Source: Eubacterium sp. 1001713B170207_170306_E7 (GTDB taxonomy: Bacteria > Bacillota > Clostridia > Eubacteriales > Eubacteriaceae). From it: 64,000 nucleotides of DNA. Location of the stretch: positions 310,001 to 374,000 of the forward strand of contig NZ_JADMVE010000004.1 of assembly GCF_015547515.1 (NCBI RefSeq). The letters run 5' to 3'. Positions 7,845 to 33,828 of the stretch are shown here, piece by piece (the stretch's first letter is position 1; each line of letters opens with the position of its first letter). Both the position numbers and the translations under genes were made by a program. Below the pieces are notes generated by a model. The model was not told where the DNA came from and made no database searches. It saw only the letters and a program-made list of their open reading frames with translations.

Positions 7845-8465
7845 ATGAGTAACTATGCAATGATCAGCGATTATGTTGTAAACGGAAATGAAAACGGCGT
7901 TGTCAATGAAGTTAACGCCGCATTATCCGCCAATGCTGCGCCTCTTGAAATCATCAATGACGGCCTGCTGACCGGTATGAATGTTGTCGGTGAAAGGTTT
8001 GCCAACGGCGAAATGTTTGTTCCCGAGGTTTTAATGGCTGCACGTGCCATGAACGCCGGCATGGACATTGTCAAGCCGCTTTTGGCAGACGGCGACGTCA
8101 CCTCCCTGGGAACGGTAGTCATCGGCACCGTTAAGGGCGACCTCCACGACATCGGCAAAAACCTGGTGGTCATGATGCTTGAAAGCGCCGGGTTCAAGGT
8201 TGTAAACCTCGGGGTCGACGCCAAGAAGGAAGCTTTCATCGAAGCCGCCAAGGAAAACGACGCGGATATCGTAGCCATGTCCGCCATGCTGACCACCACC
8301 ATGACCTATATGGATGAAATAATTAAATCCTGTAAGGACGCCGGAATCGACGCCAGATATATGATCGGCGGCGCTCCGGTAACACCTGCCTACGCCGAAA
8401 AAATCAGCGCGATCTACACCGCTGACGCCTCGACTGCTGCCGAAAAGGCCAAGGCGCTGGTTTAG
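7845..8465 (+). CDS. Corrinoid protein (MttC/MtbC type), copy 1
   Basis: A 206-residue methyl carrier with an N-terminal four-helix cap (residues about 1-85) and a C-terminal cobalamin-binding Rossmann domain. The lower-ligand motif GDLHDIGKNLVVMMLESAGF has its histidine near residue 100, and GGAPVT lies near 175. It accepts a methyl group from an MttB-type protein as methyl-Co(III) and passes it to a pterin-dependent partner. Size and motif order are standard. It lies 41 bp after the cyclodeaminase gene and 114 bp before an MttB homologue in the same operon, so that enzyme is its likely donor. It is very close to the protein at 17149-17775, so exchange between pathways is plausible. Confidence 0.95.
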   Translation: MSNYAMISDYVVNGNENGVVNEVNAALSANAAPLEIINDGLLTGMNVVGERFANGEMFVPEVLMAARAMNAGMDIVKPLLADGDVTSLGTVVIGTVKGDLHDIGKNLVVMMLESAGFKVVNLGVDAKKEAFIEAAKENDADIVAMSAMLTTTMTYMDEIIKSCKDAGIDARYMIGGAPVTPAYAEKISAIYTADASTAAEKAKALV

Positions 8466-12170: not shown

Positions 12171-12225
12171 CTTTTTTCTTTTAAAGATGTTATTATCATA
12201 TCATAAAAAGAAAGGAGCCGTCATC

Positions 12226-12843
12226 ATGAAACCAAATTTGACAGAAATCATTTTTTTACTGGACCGCAGCGGGTCAATGGCAGGACTGGAGGCTGATACC
12301 ATTGGCGGATACAACCAATTTTTAAGAGAGCAGTCAAAAAAAGCCGGGGAGCTGCGTGTTACCACTGTTCTTTTCGACCATGAGTACGAATGCCTGTACC
12401 AGAGCGCCATGCCCCAGGACGCTGTGCTTACAGAGGGGCAGTACTTTGTCCGGGGCTGCACAGCCCTCTATGACGCGGTGTGAAAAGCCGTCACCGATAC
12501 CGGCCGGCGGCTTGCGGACACGCCCGAGCGCGCCCGTCCCTCCAAGGTGATTGTCGTCATTACAACCGACGGCTATGAAAATGCCAGCAAAGCCTATACA
12601 CATCCGCAAATTCAGAATATGATCCTGCACCAACAGGAAAAATACAGCTGGGAATTTCTGTTCTTCGGCGCAAACATTGATGTGGCCAATGTCGCTGAAA
12701 CCATCGGCGTCCAGGCTGACAGGGCTTTTTCCTATGAAGCCGACAGCCTAGGCGTCTGCAAAATGATGGAATGCGCCTGCGATGTGGTTTCGACCCTCAG
12801 AGATACGCCCTCCTGCCAAAATGACGCTGAGACAAATTCGTGA
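12226..12843 (+). pseudogene. VWA-domain protein interrupted by an in-frame TGA
   Basis: The reading frame from ATG 12226 (AAGGAG upstream) encodes a von Willebrand A domain of about 205 residues. The metal-site residues are present: DRSGSM near residue 10, the threonine in GCTALYDAV near 80 and the aspartate in TTDGYENAS near 117. One in-frame TGA at 12481-12483 splits it after ALYDAV, and the frame continues unbroken to 12843. Related VWA proteins usually have glycine there, so a GGA-to-TGA change is the simplest explanation. A stem-loop (12485-12513) directly follows, which leaves selenocysteine insertion or readthrough as a remote alternative. No restart codon with a ribosome site is seen just after the TGA. 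Confidence 0.75.
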
Positions 12844-12954: not shown

Positions 12955-13593
12955 TCATGCCGACCGGAATTCGCAGCCGTAATTTGTGCACAGGCTGCAG
13001 TCGTGATCCTTCTCCGCGATCTGTATGTTTTTGTCCGCGCCGTACACATACCCCATGGTTTTCAGGGGATTGTACATAAAGCCCTCTGTCACAGAAACGC
13101 CCAGCAACTTGCCGCCGTCTGTTTCGTCCAGGATCAGCTTCTGGTTTTGAATGGGAATGATGTAGTCGTCCGGTTGATACCGCACGGTCAGCGCGTAGCC
13201 CTTGTTTTCAAAAACATCCTCGCGGATTACAGGGTAAAAATCATCGGACAGGTTAAAGAGCAGCTGGTCGGCGATGGAGTCGATCATCAGCCCTTTAAGA
13301 TAATCCTTTTCCGCAAAATAGGCGGTACAGCGGTCGCTGATTCCACGCCCCAGCGAGACCATGGCGTACACAAAATGGCTGACCTCACAGAGGCCCTTGT
13401 GCATGGGCTCACGGTCCCCGGCTTTTTTCAGAATATAAATACCTCTGGCATCCACCAGTTTGGGGATCTCCTCTGCCAGCTCGTTATAGGCCGACAAAAA
13501 TTCTTCGTAGTTTGGCTGTGTCTCGTAGATATGCATCCGTTTAAACACAATATCCCGTTCCATGCGGATGGGAATACGATAAACCTTTTCCAT
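12955..13593 (-). CDS. Protein resembling the B12-dependent methionine synthase activation domain
   Basis: A 212-residue soluble protein. The central region, ending VTEGFMYNPLKTMGYVYGAD, resembles the AdoMet-binding activation domain of cobalamin-dependent methionine synthase. In MetH that domain reductively remethylates inactive cob(II)alamin. The C-terminus carries a cysteine cluster (DCSLCTNYGCEFRS). Proteins of this size occur beside corrinoid methyltransferase genes in acetogens, and this one is the last gene of an operon that contains a corrinoid protein. The start at MEKVYRI has GGAGG 7 bases upstream. A role in reactivating the corrinoid protein is inference; the family call is moderately sure. 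Confidence 0.6.
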   Translation of the reverse strand: MEKVYRIPIRMERDIVFKRMHIYETQPNYEEFLSAYNELAEEIPKLVDARGIYILKKAGDREPMHKGLCEVSHFVYAMVSLGRGISDRCTAYFAEKDYLKGLMIDSIADQLLFNLSDDFYPVIREDVFENKGYALTVRYQPDDYIIPIQNQKLILDETDGGKLLGVSVTEGFMYNPLKTMGYVYGADKNIQIAEKDHDCSLCTNYGCEFRSA

Positions 13594-13621
13594 TTTCACA
13601 CCTCCTGCTTGTTATTATAAC

Positions 13622-14506
13622 TCATTTTTCGGCTGCGACCAATACCTCCTCTGTGTTTTCACGGGTGATGAAAATCACAGAGAGCGTCATCAGTATGGAA
13701 CCAATCCAGGTATTCATATTATAGGGATCGCCAAAAATCAGAATCCCCAGGATCAGGGAGACCACCGCCTCAAAGGAGATGATCAGCGAGGTTTTTGTCG
13801 AGCCGATGCATTTGATGGAATAAGCAATGGCCCCCAGCACAAACACCGTCACCGCCCCGATAGAGGCTCCCATCAGAAGCTGCGGCCCGTCAACTGCCAG
13901 AAACTGCGGCGTACCCGCGAGAACGCCCTGTATAAAAAAGAAAATACAGCTGAAGCCCGACAGGTAAAAAACAATCACCAGATTATCCAGCGATTTGACA
14001 CTGCTCTTCTGAATCCCCACCAGATAGATGGCATAGGCCAGACCCGAGCCGATGGCCAGCATGCTGCCAAAATTGAAAAGCTCCAGGCTGAAATTCATCA
14101 GGCAGAAAATCCCGAGAACAGCCAGCGATAATGACACTGCTTTTATTTTTGTCAGCTTCTCCTTAAAAAGCAGGGTCATAATGACCAGCACAAACAGCGG
14201 ATAGGTAAAGTACAGCATGGTCGCCAGCCCCATGGGCAGGAAATTAAAGGAGGTGGCCAGCAGAAAGGTAGAGCCGCCATAGCCCGCCACGGTCAGCAGC
14301 ACCAGCGTTAAGAGCTGCCGGAGATTAATCCGGCAGTTCTGTTTTTTAATGATGAACCAGCCTCCTGTAAGGATAAACACAAACAGAAAGCGGTAAAAGA
14401 GCACCTCGACGGAGGTCATGCCTGTGTTCATCATCCATTTTGTGAGCACCAGAATTCCGCCGCAGCTGAAAGCGGCGCTGATCGACGCGATTATTCCCAA
14501 TGACAT
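13622..14506 (-). CDS. DMT superfamily (EamA) transporter
   Basis: A 294-residue integral membrane protein with about ten helices in two EamA repeats (YFTYPLFVLVIMTLLFKEK; TKTSLIISFEAVVSLILG). It lies 28 bp before the activation-domain gene and 20 bp after the racemase-family gene, so it is part of the aconitase X operon. Its relative at 164-1051 sits by another MttB locus, which suggests these exporters or importers handle amino-acid-like products of amine demethylation. Direction and substrate are not visible. Confidence 0.88.
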   Translation of the reverse strand: MSLGIIASISAAFSCGGILVLTKWMMNTGMTSVEVLFYRFLFVFILTGGWFIIKKQNCRINLRQLLTLVLLTVAGYGGSTFLLATSFNFLPMGLATMLYFTYPLFVLVIMTLLFKEKLTKIKAVSLSLAVLGIFCLMNFSLELFNFGSMLAIGSGLAYAIYLVGIQKSSVKSLDNLVIVFYLSGFSCIFFFIQGVLAGTPQFLAVDGPQLLMGASIGAVTVFVLGAIAYSIKCIGSTKTSLIISFEAVVSLILGILIFGDPYNMNTWIGSILMTLSVIFITRENTEEVLVAAEK

Positions 14507-14526
14507 AGCGGCATCACTTCCATTTT

Positions 14527-15315
14527 CTACATAAAGCCATAATAGGGCTTTTGGGCGACCGCATTGTGAACAAAGTTGATCATTGTGATAAAGTCGAACA
14601 CCGGCAGGTTAAATTCTGCCTGAATGGCAGCGGAATAAGGCGGCATATCGCTGCATTCCAAAAGAATCGCGCCCACATCGTCGTTTTCATCTAAAATTTC
14701 ACGCACCAGTCCCTTGAGCTCCTCACGCACTGCGGCGTTGTCAAAATGGCCGCGGCGTTCCATGAATGCCGAGAATTCCGGAAGCTTACCGGCGGATTTA
14801 ATCACACACCGGTTGAAAATCTCCTCCGAGACATTGCATTCTGCGAACAGTTCCTTGGTCAGGTTCTTGCCGTCCGCGCACAGAACACCGATTTTCTGGC
14901 TGCTCTTAAGCCCCGCGGCGATCCATGACGCCTGAATGACACTGGACAGGTAAACCGGAATATCCAGCGCCTCAGCTACCTTTTTCTGGAAATGCCCGAA
15001 ATAACCGCAGGCGCCGCAGATCGCCCGGCAGCCCTCGCGTTCAAGCTGTCTGGCTGTTTTGATGAGCTCTGGCAAAAGACTTTCGTCTCCGCTGTGCATT
15101 CTGTTCTGGTCTGCGCCCGGCACCCAGGCATGGCGCACCGGGTAGCTGTAGGTGCTGGCATTGACCACATTTCCGGGAAGCAGGGGATAGTGAACGTCCA
15201 GCAGCATGATGCCGACCGTATAGCCCGCTACCCATTGTCCCTCTGTCACATAAAAGTGCTGATCCAGATCTTCCTTGTCCCCCAGATAACCATAGTTGCG
15301 TACAATTTTATCCAT
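14527..15315 (-). CDS. Asp/Glu/hydantoin racemase superfamily protein
   Basis: A 262-residue cofactor-independent racemase-fold protein. The two cysteines expected as acid/base pair are visible in ICGACGYFGHF (near residue 107) and ILLECSDMPPYS (near 220). The family includes aspartate, glutamate and hydantoin racemases and maleate isomerase. It strongly resembles the protein at 28472-29251, which heads another methyltransferase operon. The start at MDKIVRN has AGGAGAAG upstream and overlaps the end of the small aconitase X gene by 8 bp, showing translational coupling. It may invert the alpha carbon of an amino acid or betaine; the substrate is unknown. Confidence 0.82.
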   Translation of the reverse strand: MDKIVRNYGYLGDKEDLDQHFYVTEGQWVAGYTVGIMLLDVHYPLLPGNVVNASTYSYPVRHAWVPGADQNRMHSGDESLLPELIKTARQLEREGCRAICGACGYFGHFQKKVAEALDIPVYLSSVIQASWIAAGLKSSQKIGVLCADGKNLTKELFAECNVSEEIFNRCVIKSAGKLPEFSAFMERRGHFDNAAVREELKGLVREILDENDDVGAILLECSDMPPYSAAIQAEFNLPVFDFITMINFVHNAVAQKPYYGFM

Positions 15316-15736
15316 TCGCTTCTTCTCCTGATTCCAAAATCTCAATATAACCCTCGTCGCCGTTCACCAAAACATAATCGCCTGTTTTTACAAGCTCAAA
15401 GACGTTTTCTTCCAGATCGGTGACGGTTGGCACACCGGTAACCACGGCTGCCACACCAGTACGGGAATCAATTTTCGGAAAAACCATACCCGCCGGCGCC
15501 TTGCCGCTCATTTTAGCCGCATGGAAATGGCAGGACCAGCCATTAGAGCCCTTTCCGCCCGAAATAATCAAAATTGATCCGATGATGCTTTTGCCCTCAA
15601 AGGGATGTCCGATCTCCATGATCAGACCGGTTTCCTCATCGATTCCGGACCAGCCTTGAATGGTTTCCTCGCTCACCATGGCCAGGCCTTTGGCAATGCC
15701 GCCGATGGCGCTGCGTCCCTTTATTTTTCTTCCCAT
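15308..15736 (-). CDS. Aconitase X small (swivel, DUF126) subunit
   Basis: A 142-residue protein matching the AcnX swivelling domain (GRSAIGGIAKGLAMVS at the N-terminus, GHPFEGKSIIGSILIISGGKGS in the middle). With the large subunit it forms a dehydratase. Bacterial two-subunit AcnX enzymes are known as cis-3-hydroxy-L-proline dehydratases, and archaeal ones as mevalonate-5-phosphate dehydratases. It overlaps the large-subunit gene by 16 bp and the racemase gene by 8 bp. Hydroxyproline-type chemistry is favoured here because of the amino-acid and betaine context, but this is inference. Confidence 0.92.
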   Translation of the reverse strand: MGRKIKGRSAIGGIAKGLAMVSEETIQGWSGIDEETGLIMEIGHPFEGKSIIGSILIISGGKGSNGWSCHFHAAKMSGKAPAGMVFPKIDSRTGVAAVVTGVPTVTDLEENVFELVKTGDYVLVNGDEGYIEILESGEEANG

Positions 15737-17013
15737 TGCTTAACCTCCCAATATCCGCGGACTGCACTTTCAAGACAGTCCTCAAGGCTTCCGTAAAAGA
15801 CCTCCGCTTCAGTGCCCGGCGCGATGTAATGGGCCTGCTTGGCAGAGTCGAAACCCACTGTTTTTGTGCCCTCCGGCATCTTTCCGCTGGTCAGCGGGCA
15901 GCTGCTGGTCAGCATAATGGCGCCGGCATCCTCAATGGTTTTCGTGTAACCGCAGCGGTCAGCGGTTTCCCGGATCGGCGGCGCTGTCCATACCTGTAAA
16001 ACCGTATGGTCCGCAACCCTTTTTCCCTTCAGAAGCCCTGCGATTTTGCGAAGCTCTTCAATGCTGTAGTGCGGGCAGCCCAGACTGATATAGTCAATGG
16101 GGTGTTTCCCTGCTTTGTGGCCGTTCAGAATGACGCAGGATTCCTTCAAATCCTCATCGGTAATCTCAATCACCGCCTGGGGTTCCTGTCCGCCGAGGGC
16201 CATGTCCAGCGTTACGGCTTCCGGTGAAATGCCGACGAGATGGCACATTTCGGGTCCGGCTGTGGTCGCCATGGCGGCAAAGAAATATTTGACATTAAAA
16301 ATATTTGGCCGGTCCTGGAGTCCGTTGACTACAGGAATGGCATGGGTCGGCAGCTTTCTGCCAATGGAATAACCCAGAAGGTCCCAGTCCATGCTGGATT
16401 TTATCCGGCATTTCACATTGAATACATGGGTGCCCTTGCGGTTTTCCATGATATGGTTGCCCCACTTTGGCGTGCGGCCGCAGGCGGCTGCCCAGAATCC
16501 TGCCTCGAGCCCGTCGGAGTTGCCGCAGGCGCCCCATAGCGAGTTCATCAGCGTTACCGCGTGGGACTCACTGCTGACATAATGCTCTCCCCTAAGCGGG
16601 ATAAAGCCGCACATATACGGGACACAGGTCCCGACCATATTGACGCCGCGGTCTCTGTAATAATCCAGATATTCCTGGTTTTTCTCACCCTCGGCAGCGC
16701 TCACCCCCATCTCGGCGTAGCGGGTGCTGTCCATGGGGCCGCAGTCGGACTGACAATAGCATACGTAGTCGTCCTTTGGCATTTTTTCAGAAGTGCAGAA
16801 CTGCATCTGCGCAACCGTCTCTTCAATGTCATCGCTTCCAGCCGCGCTCAGATAATCGTGGGCTCCGCAGAAAACATGGGCCATCGTCACTTCACACAGT
16901 TCCTCTGCGCCCAGCACATTGGCGTATTCCACGACCTTTTTCATCGCCTGCTGTTTGAGCGTTCCGTGAACGCCGTCCAGCATTTCCTGTTCATATTCGG
17001 TCAGCTTGACCAT
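15721..17013 (-). CDS. Aconitase X large (catalytic, DUF521) subunit
   Basis: A 430-residue Fe-S dehydratase of the aconitase X family. Recognisable stretches are VKLTEYEQEMLDG at the start, MAHVFCGAHDYL, LMNSLWGACGNSDGLEAGFW, SLGCPHYSIEELRKIA and MLTSSCPLTS, the last with cysteines typical of the cluster region. It should dehydrate a hydroxy acid, with cis-3-hydroxy-L-proline to Delta1-pyrroline-2-carboxylate as the best known bacterial case. The ATG at 17013 is preferred over one four codons upstream, which directly abuts GAGGG. It is followed by the overlapping small-subunit gene and preceded, beyond a terminator-like stem, by a corrinoid protein gene on the same strand. Confidence 0.92.
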   Translation of the reverse strand: MVKLTEYEQEMLDGVHGTLKQQAMKKVVEYANVLGAEELCEVTMAHVFCGAHDYLSAAGSDDIEETVAQMQFCTSEKMPKDDYVCYCQSDCGPMDSTRYAEMGVSAAEGEKNQEYLDYYRDRGVNMVGTCVPYMCGFIPLRGEHYVSSESHAVTLMNSLWGACGNSDGLEAGFWAAACGRTPKWGNHIMENRKGTHVFNVKCRIKSSMDWDLLGYSIGRKLPTHAIPVVNGLQDRPNIFNVKYFFAAMATTAGPEMCHLVGISPEAVTLDMALGGQEPQAVIEITDEDLKESCVILNGHKAGKHPIDYISLGCPHYSIEELRKIAGLLKGKRVADHTVLQVWTAPPIRETADRCGYTKTIEDAGAIMLTSSCPLTSGKMPEGTKTVGFDSAKQAHYIAPGTEAEVFYGSLEDCLESAVRGYWEVKQWEEK

Positions 17014-17065
17014 TTCTTTTTCCATCCCTCATTCTATGTCAGAATGCCTTTCCATTTTTACTAGT

Positions 17066-17105
17066 TAAAAAGCCCTTTGGATTGTGACCAACGATCCAAA
17101 GGGCT
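17066..17105 (-). terminator. Terminator or attenuator between corrinoid and aconitase X genes
   Basis: A perfect 12-bp stem (AGCCCTTTGGAT / ATCCAAAGGGCT) with an 11-base loop, followed on the minus strand by TTTTTAAC. No separate promoter is visible for the aconitase X genes, so partial readthrough from the corrinoid gene is likely. Confidence 0.75.
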
Positions 17106-17148
17106 ATTATATATTTTTAGAAGGGTATATAACGAATCAGTTTTTATT

Positions 17149-17775
17149 TTAAGCAGTAACCATCTGTTTAGCGGTTTCGACAGCCTGAGAGGCTTCGGCA
17201 GCGTAGGTTGCGCCGATTTTTTCGCTGAATACAGGGGTTAACGGAGCTCCGCCTACCAGGTAGCAGGCATCAACACCAGCGTCTTTGCATCCGTTGATAA
17301 TTTCTTCCATAACCGTCATGGTGGTGGTTAACATTGCGGACATGGCAACAATATTGGCATTGTTTTCTTTCGCAGCAGCGATAAAATCTTCCGGCTTAGC
17401 GTCAACACCGAGGTCAACAATTTTGAAGCCAGCGCTTTCCAGCATCATAACAACCAGGTTTTTACCAATGTCATGGAGGTCGCCCTTAACGGTTCCGATA
17501 ACAATGGTTCCCAGTGTCGGAAGATCCGTGTCGGCGATCAGCGGTTTAACAATCGCCATACCAGCGTTCATGGCGCGTGCTGCCATTAAGACTTCGGGTA
17601 CGAACATTTCGCCGTTTTTAAATTTTTCGCCGACAACGTTCATACCGCTTAATAATCCATCGTTGATAATCGCAACTGGATCTGCCTTGTCAGCAACCAT
17701 GGCGTTGACTGCTTCTACAACGCCGCCTTCGTTACCGGCTACAACCAGTTCCCCAAGATTTGCTAAAGTACTCAT
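17149..17775 (-). CDS. Corrinoid protein (MttC/MtbC type), copy 2
   Basis: A 208-residue methyl carrier with helical cap and B12 domain; the histidine of GDLHDIGKNLVVMMLESAGF lies near residue 100 and GGAPLTP near 175. It is nearly collinear with the protein at 7845-8465, indicating recent duplication. No MttB gene shares its operon. Instead it follows PanB-type and opine-dehydrogenase-type genes, which is unusual: either it serves an MttB protein encoded elsewhere in the window or a methyl donor not yet recognised. AGGAG lies upstream of the ATG. Confidence 0.95.
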   Translation of the reverse strand: MSTLANLGELVVAGNEGGVVEAVNAMVADKADPVAIINDGLLSGMNVVGEKFKNGEMFVPEVLMAARAMNAGMAIVKPLIADTDLPTLGTIVIGTVKGDLHDIGKNLVVMMLESAGFKIVDLGVDAKPEDFIAAAKENNANIVAMSAMLTTTMTVMEEIINGCKDAGVDACYLVGGAPLTPVFSEKIGATYAAEASQAVETAKQMVTA

Positions 17776-17813
17776 ATTTTTCTCCTATTTTTCTTAATCA
17801 ATTTCCCAATGAT

Positions 17814-18665
17814 TTAGATTTCTTTTAATAATTTTTCGAGTTCGGCTGCTTCTTCATCAGCAATCACATAGGCGTGTTTGGAGTCATCCGGGAAAGCACC
17901 GCTTCTGACTTCTTCACAGTATGCTGTAAAGCCTTTTAACAGTTCGCCGCCAACATCGGCATATTTCTTAACGAATTTTGGTGTAAAGTCATCATAGTAG
18001 CCTACCATGTCTGCGTAGATCAAAAGCTGGCCGTCTGTGTAGGAGCCTGCGCCAATACCCAGTACCGGAATGCTTAATTTTTCAGTAATGGCTTTACCAA
18101 CAACTGCCGGAACACCTTCAACCAAGATAAAGGCTGCGCCTGCTTCTTCAATTTTGATGGCCTGTTTAACCAGCTCGATGGCAGCGTCTGCGCTCTTGCC
18201 CTGAGCCTTGTAGCCGCCCATCTGAGCAGCGAACTGAGGTGTCAGACCAATATGTCCCATGACTAAAATACCAACGTCAGCGATGGCTTTAATTCTTTCA
18301 CATACAGAGTCGGTGCCACCTTCTAATTTGATGGCGTCTACCAGAGATTCCTTGGTGAAACGGCCGGCATTGAAAACAGCTTCTTCATCTGAAATCTGAT
18401 AAGACATATAAGGCATGTCCCCAACAATAAAGGTGTTTGGCGCGCCGCGTCTTACAGCGGAGCAGTGTGCGATCATGTCGTCCATGGTTACAGGATAGGT
18501 GGTTTCGTGGCCCAGGGTAACCATACCCAGAGAGTCCCCTACCAGAATCATGTCAACGCCTGCACGTTCTTCATATTTAGCGGTCAGATAATCATAGCCT
18601 GTCAGATAAACGATCTTTTCGCCATCAGCGGCCATTCTTCTAAAATCGATAATACTTCTTTTCAC
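17814..18665 (-). CDS. panB: PanB family ketopantoate hydroxymethyltransferase
   Basis: A 283-residue member of the 3-methyl-2-oxobutanoate hydroxymethyltransferase family, which adds the C1 unit of methylene-tetrahydrofolate to a 2-oxoacid. The canonical active-site motifs are present: VGDSLGMV, GDMPYMSY, IKLEGGTDS, GHIGLTPQ, VEGVPAVV and LGIGAGSYTDGQ. The start is GTG, with AAGGAG upstream. No panC or panD is near. The gene lies between an opine dehydrogenase-type gene and a corrinoid protein gene under a sigma-54 promoter, so a catabolic or alternative role (for example removing hydroxymethyl from a hydroxylated 2-oxoacid) deserves thought. The family call is firm; the physiological role is not. 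Confidence 0.92.
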   Translation of the reverse strand: MKRSIIDFRRMAADGEKIVYLTGYDYLTAKYEERAGVDMILVGDSLGMVTLGHETTYPVTMDDMIAHCSAVRRGAPNTFIVGDMPYMSYQISDEEAVFNAGRFTKESLVDAIKLEGGTDSVCERIKAIADVGILVMGHIGLTPQFAAQMGGYKAQGKSADAAIELVKQAIKIEEAGAAFILVEGVPAVVGKAITEKLSIPVLGIGAGSYTDGQLLIYADMVGYYDDFTPKFVKKYADVGGELLKGFTAYCEEVRSGAFPDDSKHAYVIADEEAAELEKLLKEI

Positions 18666-18767
18666 GATAGTCTCCTTTTACTTTTTGAGTTTCACAACTT
18701 TCCCAAAGCTCTCAAAATTTTCCGGTATATAACATTTCTTTTTATTCTTTTCAAAAACAAGAGGGGG

Positions 18768-18789
18768 CCGGACAGCCGAAGCTGTCCGG
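18768..18789 (-). other. UUCG-capped hairpin in the opine dehydrogenase-PanB spacer
   Basis: On the minus-strand RNA CCGGACAGC, UUCG, GCUGUCCGG: a 9-bp stem closed by a very stable tetraloop. The T5 run comes 9 bases after the stem, so it may be a weak terminator or an mRNA-protecting structure. It sits inside the 169-bp gap between two genes of one operon. Confidence 0.6.
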
Positions 18790-18834
18790 TATGCTAATTA
18801 AGGGTTATTTATAATGTAAAGTTAATGAGGAAAT

Positions 18835-20049
18835 TTATTTTTCGCCTGTTCTTAAGTAGGTATTTAATTCTTCAACAGACATGCCGTCAATACCCAGGTA
18901 TTCTAAGGTATAGCCGTTTTCGGTTAAGTCTTTGCCGTGGATAGCGTTAGCCAGGTTGATCATAGAGTCAACAACTGGTGTGTCTACGCCTAATACATCA
19001 CCTAACTGCTGGTATACATAGCAGCCAACCGGGATATCTTCAGTGATGTAACGGTTATTCATGTCGAAGGGGCCGGTGCCGTACTGGATTGGATCCTGTT
19101 TGTCGAATGGAATTAAGTAATCAAGTCCCATGTATTCCTGGCCAAGAACATTTTCACGTGAGAAGAAGTGTTCTTTTTCATATGGCTGGATGCCAACGCC
19201 CAATTTTGCAGCTAAGTCACATTCTTCTTCATAGAAGGTGTACTGTACCTGAGAAATGGATGGGCAGTAAGCGTGAGAGTAGATGGAGAACTTATATTTG
19301 TCTTCGCCGAAGATGGTTCCGAAGTTTTCCATTGTGGATACACCAAGGATTGCGCCTGGGCAGTGGAGTACTGGGTTTACATTTGAGAAACCAGTATCTA
19401 ATACAGTATCGCCTGCTACTGCGCCGTCGCCATTGGTTACAGCGTCCATAGATGGTAAGTATTTGGAGCTTTCGATGAAGGCTTCTGTATCTGTTGCCGG
19501 CATTGCAGCACCACGAAGGGTGATTGCACGGTAGTATACTCTGATTTTATGTGTGATAACGCCACCAGGCATATCAACACGGCTGCCGTAGGTAGAAGAA
19601 GACCAGCCGCCGATGATAACTTTTGCGGTGCAGCCAGCTTCACGCATCATTTTGCGTAAGATTAAAGAACCATAGTTATCTGGGAAGATGTGGATAACCT
19701 GTCCGTCTTCCAGACATGGGATTAATTTTTCAAAGAAAGGTTTGTGACCGAAGGTAGGTGTTGCAACAACGATGATGCCTGCGCCCTTAACTGCTTCTGC
19801 TACATCAGTTGTTACCTTTTCCATTTTAGCAAAGCCTTCACGTTCAAAGCCGTACAGGTTGCACTGTTCGCCGTAGAATTTGATCCCGACTCTTTCAACA
19901 TTCTTTAATGTTTTTTCTGCGAAGGGCATCATGTCGCAAATTCTTACCTTTGCGCCGCCTAAAGCACAGTCCCCTGCAATCGCTTTACCAACACCGCCAG
20001 CGCCCAACACCGCGATTGGTTTGTCTTTTAAATAACTCATATCTGCCAT
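18835..20049 (-). CDS. Opine (octopine/nopaline) dehydrogenase family protein
   Basis: A 404-residue NAD(P)-dependent dehydrogenase. The N-terminal Rossmann domain has IAVLGAGGVGKAIAGDCAL, and the C-terminal half has the octopine-dehydrogenase fold landmarks (VNPVLHCPGAILGV near residue 210, YSHAYCPSISQVQY). Such enzymes interconvert an N-(carboxyalkyl) amino acid with an amino acid plus a 2-oxoacid. The start at MADMSYL is chosen because AAGGAG lies 10 bases before it; 52 upstream codons are open but include the promoter. It is first in the PanB/corrinoid/aconitase X operon. The substrate is unknown; a 2-oxoacid product could feed the PanB protein. Confidence 0.85.
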   Translation of the reverse strand: MADMSYLKDKPIAVLGAGGVGKAIAGDCALGGAKVRICDMMPFAEKTLKNVERVGIKFYGEQCNLYGFEREGFAKMEKVTTDVAEAVKGAGIIVVATPTFGHKPFFEKLIPCLEDGQVIHIFPDNYGSLILRKMMREAGCTAKVIIGGWSSSTYGSRVDMPGGVITHKIRVYYRAITLRGAAMPATDTEAFIESSKYLPSMDAVTNGDGAVAGDTVLDTGFSNVNPVLHCPGAILGVSTMENFGTIFGEDKYKFSIYSHAYCPSISQVQYTFYEEECDLAAKLGVGIQPYEKEHFFSRENVLGQEYMGLDYLIPFDKQDPIQYGTGPFDMNNRYITEDIPVGCYVYQQLGDVLGVDTPVVDSMINLANAIHGKDLTENGYTLEYLGIDGMSVEELNTYLRTGEK

Positions 20050-20121
20050 TGTTTTCATTCTCCTTTTTTGTTCCTTTGGATTTTCTTTTACTTTTTTAAT
20101 TTGTGTGATGCCATTATATAA

Positions 20122-20138
20122 CGCAATATGCGTGCCAA
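20122..20138 (-). promoter_or_regulatory. Sigma-54 (-24/-12) promoter for the opine dehydrogenase-PanB-corrinoid operon
   Basis: On the minus strand TTGGCAC, five bases, TTGCG, with GG and GC 12 bp apart. It lies about 75 bp before the ATG of the dehydrogenase gene. Confidence 0.85.
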
Positions 20139-26215: not shown

Positions 26216-27862
26216 TTATTCAGAGTCAGCCTTTTTCTTGAAAAACCGGCTCTTTTTACTAGAAGCTGCAAGCTCTGCTTCTTCTGCTTCGGCAGCCTTG
26301 AGCTGACGATCCAGATCTGCCGCATAGGTGATTTCGTCCTGTTTGTACTTGCCAGACAGGAAGTACCTCAGGAACCCGATAATCATGAGTACCTCTATAA
26401 AGAGCATTGGATAGCCCGCAATGGTTTTAACAATTTTTATGCCATTGATTCCGCCGGTTACGACGAAGAGAACGGATACAGCACCGATTAAGATACCCCA
26501 GAATACCTTGATTGGAAGCGGTGCTTCCTTAACATCAGAAGTCTGCTGTCTCAGGGACATCTGCGAAATCGTTGAGGTCATGGAGTCGGCCAGCGTTATA
26601 AACGACAAGGCAACCAGAATCAGCATAATCACACGGATAATCATCGTGCCTGGAACAAATTCAAACAATTTCATCATAAATGCTTCAGCACCGCTGGCAT
26701 TGTAGAATTCCATTAAGTCATAGATGCCTGTCAGCTGAATGTTGATGGCGAATCCGCCAAAGATACCAAACCAGATCAGTGCGAAAACTGAAGGCAGGAT
26801 AACATTAACGGTGATGAACTGACGGATGGTACGGCCATAGGACATTTTTACCAGGAACAAGCCAACGATCGGCCCAAAGGACAGCCAGTCCGTCATCCAG
26901 TATAAATCCCACCACTGCGGCCACATTTCAGAATCGGCAACAGCTGTAACAACAGGTTCCGTGTAAGATGTTAATGCAATGATATTGTTAATGTAATAAC
27001 CGCTGGCTTCTACAGTCAGGTTACAGATATACTGTACAGGCCCGCAGACAAACATGAAGATCATAAGCGCGATAAAGATCCACGCATTTTTATCAGACAG
27101 CCACTGAATCCCTTTGTCAAGGCCGGTGGCGCTTGAAATGGTATATGAAATAATAATGACAACCGCAATCGCAGTCCAAACCATTGGTCCAGGTGTGATG
27201 CCGAATACGAAATCCAGGCCTGCACCAATTTGCAGAAGGCCGTAGCCTAAAGAACCGGCAACACCGCCGACGATAGCGAATAAAACAAGACCATCAATGA
27301 TATCATTGGTTTTTTCACCAAAATTTTTACCATTTTTCCAATATACCAGACCGGAGCTGGAAGCGTAATCCTTACCCATGTTCCAGTAAGCGTAACCGCA
27401 GCAGATCGCTGCAACCGCGTAAATGGAGTATGGCTGGAATGCCCAGTGCTGGAAGGATTTTGCCATGGCCCAGATAATGGCTGCATAGCTGCCCGGTTCA
27501 ACACCAGCGGATGCCGGCGGCGTAAAGGAAATGGTCAGAGGTTCAACAGCCCCCCAGAATACAATCCCGGTACCGATACCGGCACACAGTGAGATTGCCC
27601 ACCAGTTCCATGTACTGTATTTTGGCTTAGCATTCGGTCCCCCAAACTTGGTGCTGCCAATTGGATGCACATATAAGAATACCAGGAATCCCAAGAACAA
27701 CAGGATGCCAAGCGCTACTAACCAACCACCGCTGTGCATGAGTTCCAGGAAAAAAGCGGTCATCGTGTCCGCAAAGTTCGGATCCGTAGCACCCAGGATC
27801 AAAACAGCGCCCATTAAAACGATAGGAATACCTACAGTTATCAGTCGGACTTTCTTAAACAT
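26216..27862 (-). CDS. BCCT family betaine/carnitine/choline transporter
   Basis: A 548-residue twelve-helix transporter with a charged C-terminal tail (SSKKSRFFKKKADSE). The TM8 region is variant: PQWWDLYWMTDWLSFGP, then KMSYGRTIRQF. It is closer to the BCCT protein at 2947-4608 than to the one at 22683, so these two may form a subgroup. GGGAG precedes the ATG and a sigma-54 promoter lies about 190 bp upstream. It is transcribed alone, divergently from the racemase/double-MttB operon, which it probably supplies with substrate. Confidence 0.94.
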   Translation of the reverse strand: MFKKVRLITVGIPIVLMGAVLILGATDPNFADTMTAFFLELMHSGGWLVALGILLFLGFLVFLYVHPIGSTKFGGPNAKPKYSTWNWWAISLCAGIGTGIVFWGAVEPLTISFTPPASAGVEPGSYAAIIWAMAKSFQHWAFQPYSIYAVAAICCGYAYWNMGKDYASSSGLVYWKNGKNFGEKTNDIIDGLVLFAIVGGVAGSLGYGLLQIGAGLDFVFGITPGPMVWTAIAVVIIISYTISSATGLDKGIQWLSDKNAWIFIALMIFMFVCGPVQYICNLTVEASGYYINNIIALTSYTEPVVTAVADSEMWPQWWDLYWMTDWLSFGPIVGLFLVKMSYGRTIRQFITVNVILPSVFALIWFGIFGGFAINIQLTGIYDLMEFYNASGAEAFMMKLFEFVPGTMIIRVIMLILVALSFITLADSMTSTISQMSLRQQTSDVKEAPLPIKVFWGILIGAVSVLFVVTGGINGIKIVKTIAGYPMLFIEVLMIIGFLRYFLSGKYKQDEITYAADLDRQLKAAEAEEAELAASSKKSRFFKKKADSE

Positions 27863-27960
27863 AATACTTCTCCCTCTTTTTTAGATTTTCGAATACGATA
27901 AGCCTTACCTTTAACCAGACCATTACCCTATTATATTGATGGTAACCTTTTAAACTTCCA

Positions 27961-27990
27961 TTGACAATCGAGTGTTTCTCACCCTATACT
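27961..27990 (+). promoter_or_regulatory. Possible sigma-70 promoter with no obvious gene
   Basis: TTGACA, 18 bp, TATACT on the plus strand in the 608-bp spacer 27863-28471. No reading frame follows before the racemase gene, so it may give a long leader or a small RNA, or be inactive. Confidence 0.35.
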
Positions 27991-28052
27991 AGGGCAACGG
28001 GCTGGTTTTGGGAAAAGCCTATCATTTAGCGAATGACTATGCAATTATATAT

Positions 28053-28069
28053 TGCAAGGTTCATGCCAA
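28053..28069 (-). promoter_or_regulatory. Sigma-54 promoter for the BCCT gene at 26216
   Basis: On the minus strand TTGGCAT, five bases, TTGCAA, GG to GC 12 bp. Confidence 0.8.
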
Positions 28070-28392: not shown

Positions 28393-28410
28393 TTGGCACA
28401 AAGCTTGCAT
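28393..28410 (+). promoter_or_regulatory. Sigma-54 promoter for the racemase-double MttB operon
   Basis: TTTGGCAC, five bases, TTGCAT, GG (28395) to GC (28407) 12 bp: an excellent match to the consensus. The start codon is about 60 bp downstream. Confidence 0.9.
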
Positions 28411-28471: not shown

Positions 28472-29251
28472 ATGCAAAGAGATTTAGCCATCAATTACAT
28501 GACCACACGGAAAAATCATACCTGCTATGGTATGGGGATTGGTATTATGGTACTGGACGACGCTTATCCAGGATTCCCGGGAGACGTCCGCAACGCCAGC
28601 GCATGGGGCTTCCCCATTCAGTATGAAATCGCAAAGGGTGTCGACAATTACACACTCGTTTGGGAACAGGATAAAACCCCCTGCCGCGAACCGATTGTAC
28701 AGGCTGCCAAAAATTTGGAAAGAATGGGCTGCCGTGCCGTTGCAGCAGAATGCGGATACTTCGCATATTTCCAGCAGGATGTCGCTGCCGCTGTTGATAT
28801 TCCGGTATTTATGTCCAGCCTGCTGCAAGTGCCTTTCATTCAGCAGCTGATCGGACCGAAAAACGCGGTTGGCATCATCTGTGCTCAGAAACGTTTCCTG
28901 ACCGATACTCACCTTGAAAAGGTTGGCATTGACTTAAACAGCAACTTCCACATCGCAGGCGCTCAGGACGAATATGGCTGTCCTCAGTTTGATACCCTCT
29001 GGGATCACGAAAAACGTCCTGAAGTTCCGGAAAGCTACTATGCCGAATCCGAAAAGGACATGATCCGCATTGCCAAGGAATTCATCGCAAAAAATCCTGA
29101 CATTAAGGCCATTATGTTAGAATGTACAGGTATGCAGCCATTCGCAAGAGCCATTCAGCGCGAAGTGGACATGCCGGTATTCTCCTGGGGAACACTGCTT
29201 GACTATGCATGGTCCTGCGTTGCCCATCGCGACTACTACGGACATATTTAA
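28472..29251 (+). CDS. Asp/Glu/hydantoin racemase superfamily protein
   Basis: A 259-residue racemase-fold protein with the two catalytic cysteines in AAECGYFAYFQ (near residue 94) and MLECTGMQPFA (near 217). It shares the N-terminal layout (GIMVLDDAYPGFPGDVRNAS) with the protein at 14527-15315. GGGAGG lies before the ATG. It is the first gene of a sigma-54 operon with two MttB homologues, so it may interconvert stereoisomers of an amino-acid betaine or of the demethylated product, letting stereospecific enzymes use both. No biochemical precedent for a betaine racemase of this family is claimed. Confidence 0.85.
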   Translation: MQRDLAINYMTTRKNHTCYGMGIGIMVLDDAYPGFPGDVRNASAWGFPIQYEIAKGVDNYTLVWEQDKTPCREPIVQAAKNLERMGCRAVAAECGYFAYFQQDVAAAVDIPVFMSSLLQVPFIQQLIGPKNAVGIICAQKRFLTDTHLEKVGIDLNSNFHIAGAQDEYGCPQFDTLWDHEKRPEVPESYYAESEKDMIRIAKEFIAKNPDIKAIMLECTGMQPFARAIQREVDMPVFSWGTLLDYAWSCVAHRDYYGHI

Positions 29252-29265
29252 TTAAAATATATGTC

Positions 29266-29368
29266 AGCAATTAATGGTTTGTGTGGGAGTTCTCTGCGAG
29301 CTCCCCACAATCTTCTTAATTGCTGTATTTACTGCCTTCTGTTAAAACGATTGAAACCATTAATTGCT
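29266..29368 (+). other. Large intercistronic stem-loop
   Basis: AGCAATTAATGGTTT (29266-29280) is perfectly complementary to AAACCATTAATTGCT (29354-29368), a 15-bp outer stem. Inside it a GC-rich hairpin forms from TGTGGGAG-type and CTCCCCACA sequences around 29281-29312. It occupies nearly all of the 135-bp gap between the racemase gene and the first MttB gene and could set their relative expression through RNA processing or stability. Confidence 0.7.
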
Positions 29369-29386
29369 ATGAAAAGAGGAAAACAT

Positions 29387-30817
29387 ATGAGATCTTATGA
29401 AAAATATATTTCAAAAGAAGATGTTCAGAAAATCCATGAGACTTCTTTAAAGGTATTATCTGAAGTCGGGGTTATCTTTGAACATCCAGAAATTATTGAA
29501 CTGTTTAAAAGTCACGGCGCCCGTGTAGACGGCAACACCGTTTATATGGATGAAAAGCTGGTCATGGACGCACTGTCCACCGCACCCGCATCCTTTACTG
29601 TTGAAAACTCAAAGGGCAACCATACCTTTGGCGGCGGCGCACGCGTGCTCATGCCGGCTGTCGGCAGCATCTACCGCTTGGAATCCGGTAAAATCCATAA
29701 GATGACCAACGATGAAACCGTTGATCTCTTTAAAATTTCCGATACCAGTGATGTCATTGACTGTAACTACTTCAATGTTTTCCTGGAAGATAAACAGCTG
29801 TCCATGGAAGAACGGATCTACAGCCCCGTTGCCATGGTTTTAAAATATTCCCATAAAACTGGGCTTCACCTTATGCCAAACACCTTCCCGATCCAGGGAG
29901 ATATCCGCGAACCTTTCAAAAAAGGGCTTGAACTGATCAGCCAGTTTGAAGGCCGCGCAGATGTTTACAATAATATCGTACACGTCAATTCTTTGTCCCC
30001 CCTTTGTTTTGACCACGATCCACTTGTAAAATTCCTGGTTGGGACTGAAATGAACCAGCCGCTGTGGTTCTCACCATGCGCGATGCCGGTTCTCACCGGG
30101 CCGCCATCCGTTGCAGGACTTCTGGCAATGTCTAATGCCGAAGTTGTTGCCGGTATGGTCATGGCACAGCTGGCCCGCCCGGGTATCCCTGTCGTATACG
30201 GACAGACCTCTGCCTCCACCAATTTAAGAGAAATTCAGCTCTCCATCGGCGCGCCGGAAACCGCTCTGATTTCCTACGCGACTGCCGGTCTGGCTGATTT
30301 CTACAATGTACCCTTCCGTACAGGCGGCGGCTTGAGTGACGCCAAGGATTTCGACGCCCAAACCGGCTATGAATCCGACATGATGATCCGCTCTACCTTA
30401 GATGCTGGCCCTGACCTTGTACTGCATTCCTGCGGTATCCTCGGCAGCTTCAACATCACCAGCTTTGAAAAATTCTTAATGGACGAAGATGTCTACCGCA
30501 TGAACAGACGTCTGCTTTCCGGCATCGAAGTCAACGAGGACACACTCTGCTTCGACACCATCAAAAAGGTTGGTCCGAGAGGCAACTACCTCCAAGGCCG
30601 TACACCAAAGATGTTCCGCAAGGAATTTTTCACACCAAAATACTTCAATAAGGAAGACCCGAACCAGTGGCAGCAGAATGGCAACAAGCCGGTTGTCGAC
30701 ACGCTTACACAGGCTGTTAACGAACGCCTTGAATCCTACTGCCCACCGGAAATCACTAAAGAACAGGAAGATATGCTCAACCAGTATATCCCTGAAAAAT
30801 ATAGAGATCACATCTAA
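29387..30817 (+). CDS. MttB superfamily (non-pyrrolysine) corrinoid methyltransferase, copy 4
   Basis: A 476-residue COG5598 methyltransferase without an amber codon. Landmarks are MPAVGSIYRLESGKIHK, HVNSLSPLCFDHDPL, GIPVVYGQTSASTNLREIQ, RTGGGLSDAKDFDAQTG and KKVGPRGNYLQGRTPKMFR. The start at MRSYEKY has AAGAGGAAA upstream; 42 further codons are open but run through the intercistronic stem-loop. It is followed after 27 bp by copy 5, a distant paralogue, and the operon has no corrinoid gene. Two successive demethylations of one substrate, or two substrates, are both possible. Confidence 0.94.
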   Translation: MRSYEKYISKEDVQKIHETSLKVLSEVGVIFEHPEIIELFKSHGARVDGNTVYMDEKLVMDALSTAPASFTVENSKGNHTFGGGARVLMPAVGSIYRLESGKIHKMTNDETVDLFKISDTSDVIDCNYFNVFLEDKQLSMEERIYSPVAMVLKYSHKTGLHLMPNTFPIQGDIREPFKKGLELISQFEGRADVYNNIVHVNSLSPLCFDHDPLVKFLVGTEMNQPLWFSPCAMPVLTGPPSVAGLLAMSNAEVVAGMVMAQLARPGIPVVYGQTSASTNLREIQLSIGAPETALISYATAGLADFYNVPFRTGGGLSDAKDFDAQTGYESDMMIRSTLDAGPDLVLHSCGILGSFNITSFEKFLMDEDVYRMNRRLLSGIEVNEDTLCFDTIKKVGPRGNYLQGRTPKMFRKEFFTPKYFNKEDPNQWQQNGNKPVVDTLTQAVNERLESYCPPEITKEQEDMLNQYIPEKYRDHI

Positions 30818-30844: not shown

Positions 30845-32260
30845 ATGGAAACCACAAAAAGAAATATTGATTTTGGCGTATTAAATAAAGAAAAGATTGA
30901 AACCATTCACGAAAAGAGCTTAGAGCTTCTGTCCGATTTTGGTATGCGCGTAGCCGGCGACCGCACATTGGAAGCCTTAAAAGCATATGGCTGCGAGGTA
31001 GACGGCAACATGGTTAAATTCCCAAAAGCCGTTGTTGAAAAAGCCTTAAACACGATCCCCAAAGAATTAACCTTATACAATCGTGACGGCAGCCCAAGCA
31101 TGGTCATCAACAGCAAAAACAACGTTTATTTCGGTACCCACTCCGATCAGCTTGAATACCTGGACTACAAAACCAACAAGGCCCGCACCTTCATGAAGGC
31201 CGATACCAAAACCATGTGCACCCTTGCCAGCGCACTGGAAAACATCAGCTTTGTCTTATCCGTTGGTATGAGCGGCGACGTTGACCCGGCGGTTCAGTCC
31301 CAGGTTACCTTCATCGAAACCGTTAAGAACTTTGACAAAACCATCAACTTCTCAACCAACGACATCGAATCCTTACAGGAAATCATTGACATCGCAGCTG
31401 TAGTGGCCGGCGGTCACAAGGAACTGGCTGAAAAACCTTTTATCTTTAACTATTGTGAACCGATCCCACCGATGACTCACCCCATCGAAAGTACTGAAAA
31501 ACTCTTCATCAGCGCAACCAACAAGATTCCAGTTGTCTACATGCCATACTGCATGATGGGCGGTACTGCTCCGATCACCATCGCGGGCGCCCTGACACAG
31601 AACAATGCTGAAATCCTGGCGGGCGTTGTTATCACACAGGCTGTCAACGAAGGCGCACCGATGATTTACGGCTCCATGCCGACTGTCTTTGACATGAAAA
31701 CCACGGTTGGCTCCTACGGCGCTCCAGAATTCCACCTGTCTGTCGCTGCCGCTTCTGAACTGGCTGACTACTACCAGCTTCCGTTCTTCGGCACAGCTGG
31801 CTGCTCTGACGCCAAAACCGTTGACCCACAGTCTGTTTCTGAAATCCAGATGGAACTCTTCTCTACCATTATGAGCAAAGCCAACATCGTTCATGATATC
31901 GGCGTTCTGGATCACTGCAACAGCGTTGCGCCTGCAATGGTTGTTCTGGCCAATGAAATGATCAACCAGCTGAGCGCTTACTCTAAGGGTGTTGAAGTCA
32001 ATGACGAAACCCTGGCCATGGATGTCATCAAACAGGTCGGCCACGGCGGACATTACCTCAACGAAATGCATACCCTGTCTAACTTCAGAAGCGTATGGTA
32101 TCCAGAATTCTACGACCGCAAAATGGTTAACCCGGATGAATCTGAAATCATGAGCCAGGTTACCGCCAAGATTGACAACATTCTGGAAACACACGAAGTC
32201 CCGGCATTAGAACCAGAAGTATTAAAACAAATCGAAGAAATCGAAAAGAAATATATCTAA
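30845..32260 (+). CDS. MttB superfamily (non-pyrrolysine) corrinoid methyltransferase, copy 5
   Basis: A 471-residue COG5598 protein with no amber codon. Landmarks are YFGTHSDQLEYLDYKTNK, FNYCEPIPPMTHPIES, GAPMIYGSMPTVFDMKTT, FFGTAGCSDAKTVDPQS and KQVGHGGHYLNEMHTL. GGAGGAG lies before the ATG. The GTAGCSD and PIxPxxHxIE-type stretches are shared with copy 1 (4710), not with its operon partner copy 4. It ends with a terminator. It should methylate a corrinoid protein made elsewhere; the substrate is unknown. Confidence 0.94.
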   Translation: METTKRNIDFGVLNKEKIETIHEKSLELLSDFGMRVAGDRTLEALKAYGCEVDGNMVKFPKAVVEKALNTIPKELTLYNRDGSPSMVINSKNNVYFGTHSDQLEYLDYKTNKARTFMKADTKTMCTLASALENISFVLSVGMSGDVDPAVQSQVTFIETVKNFDKTINFSTNDIESLQEIIDIAAVVAGGHKELAEKPFIFNYCEPIPPMTHPIESTEKLFISATNKIPVVYMPYCMMGGTAPITIAGALTQNNAEILAGVVITQAVNEGAPMIYGSMPTVFDMKTTVGSYGAPEFHLSVAAASELADYYQLPFFGTAGCSDAKTVDPQSVSEIQMELFSTIMSKANIVHDIGVLDHCNSVAPAMVVLANEMINQLSAYSKGVEVNDETLAMDVIKQVGHGGHYLNEMHTLSNFRSVWYPEFYDRKMVNPDESEIMSQVTAKIDNILETHEVPALEPEVLKQIEEIEKKYI

Positions 32261-32382: not shown

Positions 32383-33828
32383 TTGAAAAGCAAAGAAGAC
32401 ACCATTATAGAAGCTCTGGAGCGTGACAGTCTTCCCGTAAAGGCGATCGAACGCATTGAAGATGTCTGTATTCACGTTGTTGATAATACCGGCAAGATTG
32501 TCTGTTATTCCAAGGGCTGTGAAAAGATTGAGAACATGAAGCGCGAGGACGTTATCGGCAAGGATGCCACCAAGCTCTACAACTACATTGAAAACGAGTC
32601 CATGCAGCATTATGTTTTAAAGACCGGCAAAAAAGTCCAGGACGTCCATGTTAAGTATGAATCGCCCTCGGGCAAGCTGGCCGATGTCATCAGCAGTACC
32701 TATCCGGTATTTTCAACCGACGGCCAGAAAAATGTAGAGGCGGCCATCTGCATTTACCGGGACCTTTCGGATTATATGCACATGGCAAAAACCATTGACA
32801 AGCTGCAGAATGACCTTAAGAACCAGCAGCTTAAGGACAACGGTACCCAGTTTACCTTTAAGGATGTAGTGGGCTCCAGCGTGGCAACGCTGGAATGTGT
32901 GCGGCAGGGTAAAATCGCCGCCCAGACCAATGCCCCCATCCTTCTCGCCGGCCCAACCGGCACCGGTAAGGAAGTCTTTGCCCAGAGTATTCACAATGAC
33001 AGCAGCCGCTCCGACCACCCTTTTGTGGCCATCAACTGCTCTGCCATTCCCGAAAATCTTCTGGAAAGCACACTTTTCGGTACGGTCAAGGGCTCCTTTA
33101 CCGGCGCAACGGACGCAAAGGGTCTTCTGGAAACCGCTCGCGGCGGCACGCTGTTTTTGGATGAAATCAACTCCATGAACATGAACCTTCAGTCCAAGCT
33201 GCTGCGTGTGCTGGAAACCAAACGCTACCGCAAGGTGGGCGGCAACAAAGAACTGGACATGGATGTCCGGGTGCTGAGCGCCCTGAACCAGGATCCGCTG
33301 GAGGCTGTGGATGAAGGCCGGCTGCGCTCTGACCTCTACTACCGTCTTGCAGTTTTCTCCATCACACTTCCCAGCCTGAGCGAACGGCGCTCTGATATTA
33401 TGGAGCTGGTGCAGTCCTTTCTCTCCTCCGAGGCCGTGGCAATGGGCAAAAGCCTGTATCAGGTTTCGGACGAGGCGGCCGACATACTTCTCGGCCACGA
33501 CTGGCCCGGGAACATCCGTGAGCTCAAGCACACGGTCACCCACGCCATCTACATGGCCCAATACCAGGATACCGTGCTGACGACCGAACTGCTGCCGTCA
33601 TACATCAAAAAAAACCACACTGAAAAGAAGCTCTATGACAAATTCCTGGCCGACCGTGAAAATGATACCGACCTGAAGTCAACCCTCAGCCGCATCGAAA
33701 AGCAGATTCTGTCCGAGGTGCTGACAAAGAATGACTTTAACATCAGCAAAAGTGCCAAGGAGCTGGGGATCTCAAGACAGAATCTTCAGTACAAGCTCAA
33801 GGTCTATCAAATCAAACAAAACGGCTGA
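32383..33828 (+). CDS. Sigma-54-dependent activator with single PAS domain
   Basis: A 481-residue enhancer-binding protein with a PAS domain (residues about 18-130), a helical linker, an AAA+ domain (Walker A GPTGTGKE near 189, GSFTGA near 236, Walker B GGTLFLDEIN) and a Fis-type HTH (FNISKSAKELGISRQNL). The start codon is TTG after AAGGAGG. It is collinear with the protein at 24657 and even shares linker length. It lies directly after the racemase/double-MttB operon and probably activates that operon and the divergent BCCT gene. Confidence 0.94.
   Translation: MKSKEDTIIEALERDSLPVKAIERIEDVCIHVVDNTGKIVCYSKGCEKIENMKREDVIGKDATKLYNYIENESMQHYVLKTGKKVQDVHVKYESPSGKLADVISSTYPVFSTDGQKNVEAAICIYRDLSDYMHMAKTIDKLQNDLKNQQLKDNGTQFTFKDVVGSSVATLECVRQGKIAAQTNAPILLAGPTGTGKEVFAQSIHNDSSRSDHPFVAINCSAIPENLLESTLFGTVKGSFTGATDAKGLLETARGGTLFLDEINSMNMNLQSKLLRVLETKRYRKVGGNKELDMDVRVLSALNQDPLEAVDEGRLRSDLYYRLAVFSITLPSLSERRSDIMELVQSFLSSEAVAMGKSLYQVSDEAADILLGHDWPGNIRELKHTVTHAIYMAQYQDTVLTTELLPSYIKKNHTEKKLYDKFLADRENDTDLKSTLSRIEKQILSEVLTKNDFNISKSAKELGISRQNLQYKLKVYQIKQNG

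Follow-up and report, generated by a model that had tools for sequence, protein, structure and literature searches.

Gene content and control of the cluster

We analyzed a 64-kb stretch of DNA (the window, to which all coordinates refer) from a Eubacterium sp., and within it a gene cluster at 12955-20138 that includes an opine-dehydrogenase family gene (OpDH), a homolog of the pantothenate enzyme PanB and a corrinoid protein gene. A preliminary description of the sequence had proposed seven or eight genes transcribed together from a -24/-12 promoter. All eight were confirmed on the minus strand between 20058 and 12955, where it had placed them, and its family assignments agree with the Pfam matches (Octopine_DH, Pantoate_transf, two B12-binding domains, AcnX, AcnX swivel, Asp_Glu_race and EamA).

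The first three genes are the main subject here. OpDH (18835..20058, minus strand), a putative N-methyl amino acid dehydrogenase, belongs to PF02317, with a Rossmann domain and an octopine-dehydrogenase helical domain; its closest solved structure is 1bg6 and it has the catalytic His and Asp motifs. Its start is at 20058 or 20049, and a longer open reading frame (ORF) to 20205 crosses the promoter. The second gene encodes a PanB paralog, recognized by Pfam and NCBIfam, that we call PanB2 (17814..18665, minus strand), a candidate reverse hydroxymethyltransferase yielding methylene-tetrahydrofolate (methylene-THF); the standard PanB catalytic residues are intact. The third is a corrinoid methyl-carrier protein (17149..17775, minus strand) with B12-binding and B12-binding_2 domains and a DxHxxG motif that reads DLHDIG; it is 72% identical to the product of 7845-8465. 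Beyond it on the same strand are the large (15721..17025) and small, or swivel (15308..15736), subunits of aconitase X (AcnX), a PRK07475-type racemase of the Asp/Glu family (14527..15345), an EamA/DMT transporter (13622..14506), and a stand-alone protein of 214 amino acids that resembles the MetH activation domain (12955..13599).

The -24/-12 promoter is real. A strict sigma-54 site (TGGCACGCATATTGC, 20123..20137, minus strand) precedes OpDH, and there are six strict sites in the window compared to 0.54 expected; none of 100 shuffled sequences had six or more. On the ORF map, all six lie upstream of the starts of betaine-type operons. A site of the same form was found 58-83 nt upstream of OpDH in each of the 12 Eubacteriaceae-type loci scanned. 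Sigma-54 promoters also precede a gene for a betaine/carnitine/choline transporter (BCCT; TGGCATGAACCTTGC, 28054..28068, minus strand) and a racemase-MttB-MttB operon (TGGCACAAAGCTTGC, 28394..28408, plus strand), and activator genes are nearby (24657-26102, by Pfam, and 32383-33828).

The proposal that the eight genes form a single unit did not hold. Downstream of the corrinoid gene is an intrinsic terminator (17066..17105, minus strand) that consists of a 12-bp stem and a T run, so that the eight genes are probably not one transcript. Such terminators recur at this position in other Eubacterium, E. barkeri, E. aggregans and some Acetobacterium loci (equivalents in loci L002, L066, L067, L006, L009, L010 and L011). 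In addition, the AcnX/racemase pair is missing from relatives. E. callanderi FD has OpDH-PanB-corrinoid-EamA-activator with neither aconitase X nor racemase in between. Among 40 genomes of the family, orthologous AcnX was found in three members of the genus only (three of five, the query counted), with no close orthologue elsewhere in the family; Acetobacterium, E. barkeri and E. aggregans lack it. Because of strain FD and this sparse distribution, gene content indicates that the conserved core is OpDH-PanB-corrinoid and that AcnX and its racemase are accessory. Given the terminator and these absences, the earlier suggestion that aconitase X is an integral step is not supported.

The core unit belongs with putative betaine demethylation genes

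The cluster had been described as having no MttB gene. That is correct for the eight-gene run but not for its surroundings, where MttB genes are located at 21258-22661, 29261-30817 and 30845-32260. We found that the OpDH-PanB-corrinoid core belongs with the racemase-MttB-MttB-activator operon (28472-33828) and the BCCT gene (26216..27862, minus strand; identified by NCBIfam and synteny). In the window, another MttB/BCCT/activator group sets the genes at 26216-33828 apart from OpDH. The operon, on the plus strand, contains a PRK07475-type racemase that is a member of the core set (race259; 28472..29251; NCBIfam, 282.5 bits), an MtgB-like MttB-superfamily methyltransferase (29261..30817) whose nearest solved structure is a glycine betaine methyltransferase (9yce), a second MttB-superfamily methyltransferase (30845..32260; TIGR02369, 360 bits), and a sigma-54-dependent activator (s54b; 32383..33828), a candidate regulator with homologs beside OpDH in most loci. 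The two methyltransferases are approximately 30% identical to each other and come from different branches.

This association was apparent from other genomes. In most Acetobacterium loci, E. barkeri and E. aggregans, BCCT is immediately upstream of OpDH, and race259-MttB-MttB-activator diverges from BCCT. Genomes outside the Eubacteriaceae have related arrangements, with shared operons in two distant Bacillota (G733 and G798): a single run of PanB2-OpDH-MttB-racemase-BCCT-MttB-corrinoid-MtrH-racemase in genome G733; OpDH-MttB-racemase-MttB-PanB2-OpuABC in G798; OpDH-MttB-racemase-MttB with LIV-ABC genes in G155; OpDH-OCD-MttB-corrinoid-MttB-LIV-ABC-proline racemase-PanB2 in G615 and G729; and MttB-proline racemase-PanB2 in G770, with OpDH-OCD on a separate contig. 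Ten genera, belonging to several classes, have OpDH orthologs of at least 69% identity in the vicinity of MttB or of corrinoid/MtrH genes, and the catalytic His and Asp motifs are intact in the MttB-associated orthologs. Orthologs of the second MttB adjoin OpDH in G155, G615, G729, G733 and G798. Most loci include a racemase, which is of the PRK07475 type in Eubacteriaceae, G155, G798 and G733 (where race259 orthologs of 69-95% identity accompany OpDH) and of the proline-racemase type in G506, G572, G615, G729 and G770. The transporters near OpDH or PanB2 are of betaine or amino-acid type (BCCT, OpuABC, LIV-ABC). No methyl-corrinoid:THF methyltransferase of the MtqA/MthA/MtrH type was seen at the window locus; one is present in the G733 operon and in loci L004, L006, L007 and L172. 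The enzyme set persists while gene order and transporter type vary, as a functional pathway predicts.

In its MttB proteins, corrinoid protein and quaternary-amine importer, the module is similar to the MttB-superfamily betaine:THF systems of E. limosum (MtpB, MtcB, MtyB and MthB, with MtqC/MthC, MtqA/MthA and RamQ). Fis-type regulators adjoin MtyB and MtcB, and the E. limosum pathways remove one methyl group and then end, as shown for gamma-butyrobetaine (PMC8604678, PMC12155760). In contrast, the two MttBs, racemase, OpDH and PanB2 described here suggest that demethylation is accompanied by opening of the carbon skeleton. The main text of the E. limosum choline and gamma-butyrobetaine papers (PMC8604678, PMC12155760), and of others, has no mention of an opine dehydrogenase or PanB. 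The earlier statement that no described pathway has this gene set is consistent with the searchable literature, in which we found no description of the module, of aconitase X together with an opine dehydrogenase and a corrinoid protein, of homoserine betaine demethylation, or of PanB acting with 4-hydroxy-2-oxobutanoate. We regard the module as a variant of the MttB betaine systems, with a possible new role for PanB.

PanB2 is distinct from pantothenate-linked PanB

PanB2 has the fold and catalytic residues of ketopantoate hydroxymethyltransferase (PanB, TIGR00222) and scores 309.5 bits against the NCBIfam panB model (cut-off, 207.55). It is the sole PF02548 protein in the genome. There are no pantothenate genes in the cluster, as had been noted, and PanC (PF02569) is absent from the entire genome (G000). 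Acetobacterium dehalogenans has both an OpDH-linked PanB2 and a separate locus with a panE-like gene, panB, panC and panD, and its two PanB types are 47% identical; a role for PanB2 in pantothenate synthesis is therefore unlikely. Because PanC is absent and A. dehalogenans has a canonical panB as well, the finding that PanB2 is the only copy does not contradict the preliminary description, which had held that this PanB serves another purpose.

In a tree of 54 PanBs, the OpDH-linked proteins formed one group (97/89) inside a 35-member clade (100/99). None of the 35 had a PanC neighbor, whereas canonical PanBs do, and listed residues separate PanB2 from PanB. A larger tree placed the PanB2s of OpDH/MttB operons in at least three places, in different subclades. 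Unlike PanB, members of the PanB2 clade were never beside panC in our sample and were often beside genes for one-carbon-THF oxidation (FTHFS-FchA-FolD-PanB2 in G269, PanB2-ECF component-FTHFS in G292, FolD-PanB2 in G109) or in betaine operons; others adjoin aminotransferases or an ELFV dehydrogenase. PanB2 shares an operon or neighborhood with OpDH and MttB in Eubacteriaceae, G733, G798, G615 and G729. With kinship ignored, PanB2 (at least 56% identity) was present in 18 of 391 Clostridia and in 9 of the 11 genomes with OpDH; with Eubacteriaceae removed, the corresponding values were 4 of 6 OpDH genomes vs 13 of 386 (nominal p ~1e-5). In a phylum-wide search for OpDH, all eight genomes had a PanB match, at 58% identity or more in six.

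Several readings were rejected. A pantothenate role for PanB2 was set aside on genome content, the two PanB copies of A. dehalogenans and the lack of PanC neighbors in the clade. OpDH was considered as the ketopantoate reductase of pantothenate synthesis; panBCD loci carry another reductase-like gene (labeled PanE_DUF2520). The argument that IlvD-type neighbors of PanB are aldonate dehydratases leading to 4-hydroxy-2-oxobutanoate was dropped because two of the three pass the ilvD cut-off. PanB paralogs in L196 and L198 (G506) and L195 (G733) are beside IlvD/EDD dehydratases with TRAP or GntP transporters and possibly belong to sugar-acid or valine-related pathways.

A proposed route for an amino-acid betaine

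From the gene content, recurrent linkage, promoters, clade structure and intact catalytic residues, we infer that these gut and sediment acetogens have a regulon under sigma-54 control with which they would grow on a chiral amino-acid betaine, with OpDH splitting the demethylated product and PanB2 running in reverse (probability roughly 0.5). The BCCT, Opu and MttB proteins indicate a quaternary amine, two MttBs of different branches suggest two demethylation steps, and the racemase indicates a chiral alpha carbon. In the proposed pathway, BCCT would take up the betaine, and the two MttBs would move methyl groups to the corrinoid protein and then to THF, leaving an N-methyl amino acid. The PRK07475-type racemase would invert its alpha carbon. 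Classical opine dehydrogenases act on a D-configured carboxyalkyl carbon; we propose the racemization step for this reason, as racemase and OpDH together would oxidize an N-methyl-L-amino acid. OpDH, with NAD(P)+, would oxidize the secondary amine to a 2-oxoacid and methylamine. PanB2, in reverse, would then cleave a 4-hydroxy-2-oxoacid and free methylene-THF for acetogenesis. The earlier suggestion that a methylated amino acid is degraded and its one-carbon units sent to folate is thus retained.

Homoserine betaine, the head group of DGTS betaine lipids, appears to be the simplest natural substrate that fits, because a quaternary amine, two demethylations, a chiral carbon and a 4-hydroxy-2-oxoacid are all accounted for; 4-hydroxy-2-oxobutanoate would yield pyruvate and methylene-THF. 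A wider claim is more tentative, and we regard it as possible only: that a widespread catabolic PanB clade in Bacillota, annotated as a vitamin enzyme, runs reverse hydroxymethyl transfer as a dedicated one-carbon donor, and that in acetogens it is the final piece of a new route by which an amino-acid betaine is used in full, by way of an opine dehydrogenase that splits N-methyl amino acids. Homoserine betaine derived from betaine lipids would be the simplest case.

If the proposal is correct, acetogens would draw on a betaine's carbon skeleton in addition to its methyl groups, and betaine lipids or other amino-acid betaines would have an added entry to acetate in gut and sediment. There would also be a function for the PanB homologs of this clade, whose present annotation is as pantothenate enzymes, and automated prediction of vitamin B5 prototrophy from panB alone would therefore fail in these genomes. 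These predictions are specific, and purified enzymes would allow them to be tested.

Alternative explanations

The best surviving alternative, although an unlikely one, is that OpDH has a true opine (N-carboxyalkyl amino acid) as its substrate or product: the betaine itself may be opine-like, or OpDH may make an opine for export by EamA, as in opine metallophores. OpDH shares its two-domain structure and the catalytic His and Asp with N-(1-D-carboxylethyl)-L-norvaline dehydrogenase (1bg6) and octopine dehydrogenase (3c7a). An EamA gene is present downstream in Eubacteriaceae, and the surroundings of OpDH relatives of 54-65% identity contain an aminotransferase and a Gate-family transporter but no MttB. 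However, unlike the known enzymes, OpDH is linked to MttB demethylation and betaine uptake, with methylamine as the proposed amine product. Orthologs of at least 69% identity accompany MttB and betaine importers, no nicotianamine-synthase-like gene was seen, and EamA is not conserved beyond Eubacteriaceae. Because the context is one of betaine transporters plus MttB, the opine substrate of the preliminary description is unsupported.

Slightly less probable is that PanB2 works in the forward direction, joining methylene-THF to 2-oxoisovalerate or pyruvate in a biosynthetic route such as that to pantoate. Several observations favor this or weigh against the pathway proposed above. NCBIfam is unable to tell PanB2, the only PanB in the genome, from PanB, and the FTHFS/FolD linkage also fits supply of methylene-THF from formate. 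Two PanB paralogs outside betaine operons adjoin genuine IlvD, which suggests 2-oxoisovalerate, and one IlvD-linked paralog is 94% identical to PanB2 of the G733 betaine operon; one PanB2 is near an ApbA-type ketopantoate reductase. The G155 locus has OpDH, MttB and racemase with no PanB2 nearby, and PanB2 may thus be dispensable; the PanB2 of that genome is at another site, behind an IclR-type regulator. G463 and G506 likewise have no PanB2 beside OpDH. On the other side are the lack of PanC in the genome and next to the entire clade, the separate panB-panC-panD locus of A. dehalogenans, and the sigma-54 and IclR regulation and betaine importers, which suggest catabolism.

It is improbable that AcnX, racemase, OpDH, PanB and corrinoid protein make up one pathway for a hydroxylated amino acid, as first proposed. 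All of the genes are on one strand, AcnX is also near PanB2 in G134, and a second AcnX pair in the genome shares a different betaine operon with MttB, RidA and a tautomerase, but the terminator separates AcnX from the core, and neither strain FD nor any other genus that retains OpDH-PanB2-corrinoid has AcnX. Finally, it is very improbable that PanB2 is a new type of methyltransferase that has the methyl-corrinoid protein as its direct partner and acts, for example, on an enolate: the two genes are adjacent in Eubacteriaceae, but PanB2 of G798 adjoins MttB and the transporter rather than a corrinoid gene, the usual PanB catalytic residues are intact, and the G733 operon has a conventional MtrH-type methyltransferase.

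Accessory genes and minor observations

The AcnX large subunit matches the AcnX family at 362 bits, and a family test gave 205.9 bits. As in the known aconitase X LhpI, there are large and swivel (AcnX_swivel_put) subunits; unlike LhpI, the protein is accessory, scores far below the LhpI model cut-off, and has Ser-Cys-Pro-Leu with the type II set of Fe-S ligands (Cys134, Cys317 and Cys376). The second AcnX pair (G000:C5:104000-122000; L068) is 47-51% identical, in an operon with BCCT, MttB, a Rid-family hydrolase, a tautomerase-like protein, 2-oxoacid oxidoreductase subunits and sigma-54 regulators. The accessory racemase (NCBIfam, 269.5 bits) has both candidate active-site cysteines, and a 59% homolog is last in the G733 operon.

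EamA follows the corrinoid gene in most Eubacteriaceae loci. The 214-amino-acid final protein has no Pfam match; the guess that it is MetH-activation-like holds because the structure predicted by AlphaFold (mean pLDDT 87.6) resembles the MetH activation domain, with TM0269 (1j6r) the best match (E 3e-9, TM 0.72-0.78). A gene 56% identical to it (G000:C4:309019-309636), left of the window, adjoins another EamA gene (164-1051), repeating the pair in the cluster. A VWA-domain-like gene (12187-12843) is two ORFs here and undivided (282 amino acids) in L002 and L066. A GC-rich hairpin is present in the OpDH/PanB2 gap (18768-18789) and, with a different sequence, at a similar place in Acetobacterium; E. 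barkeri, with a gap of 24 nt, does not have it. In Acetobacterium and E. barkeri, though not in E. callanderi, the core is followed, downstream of EamA, by genes for a CobW GTPase and for a UROD-type methyltransferase that has a thioredoxin domain at its C terminus (L009, L010, L004-L006, L008 and L011).

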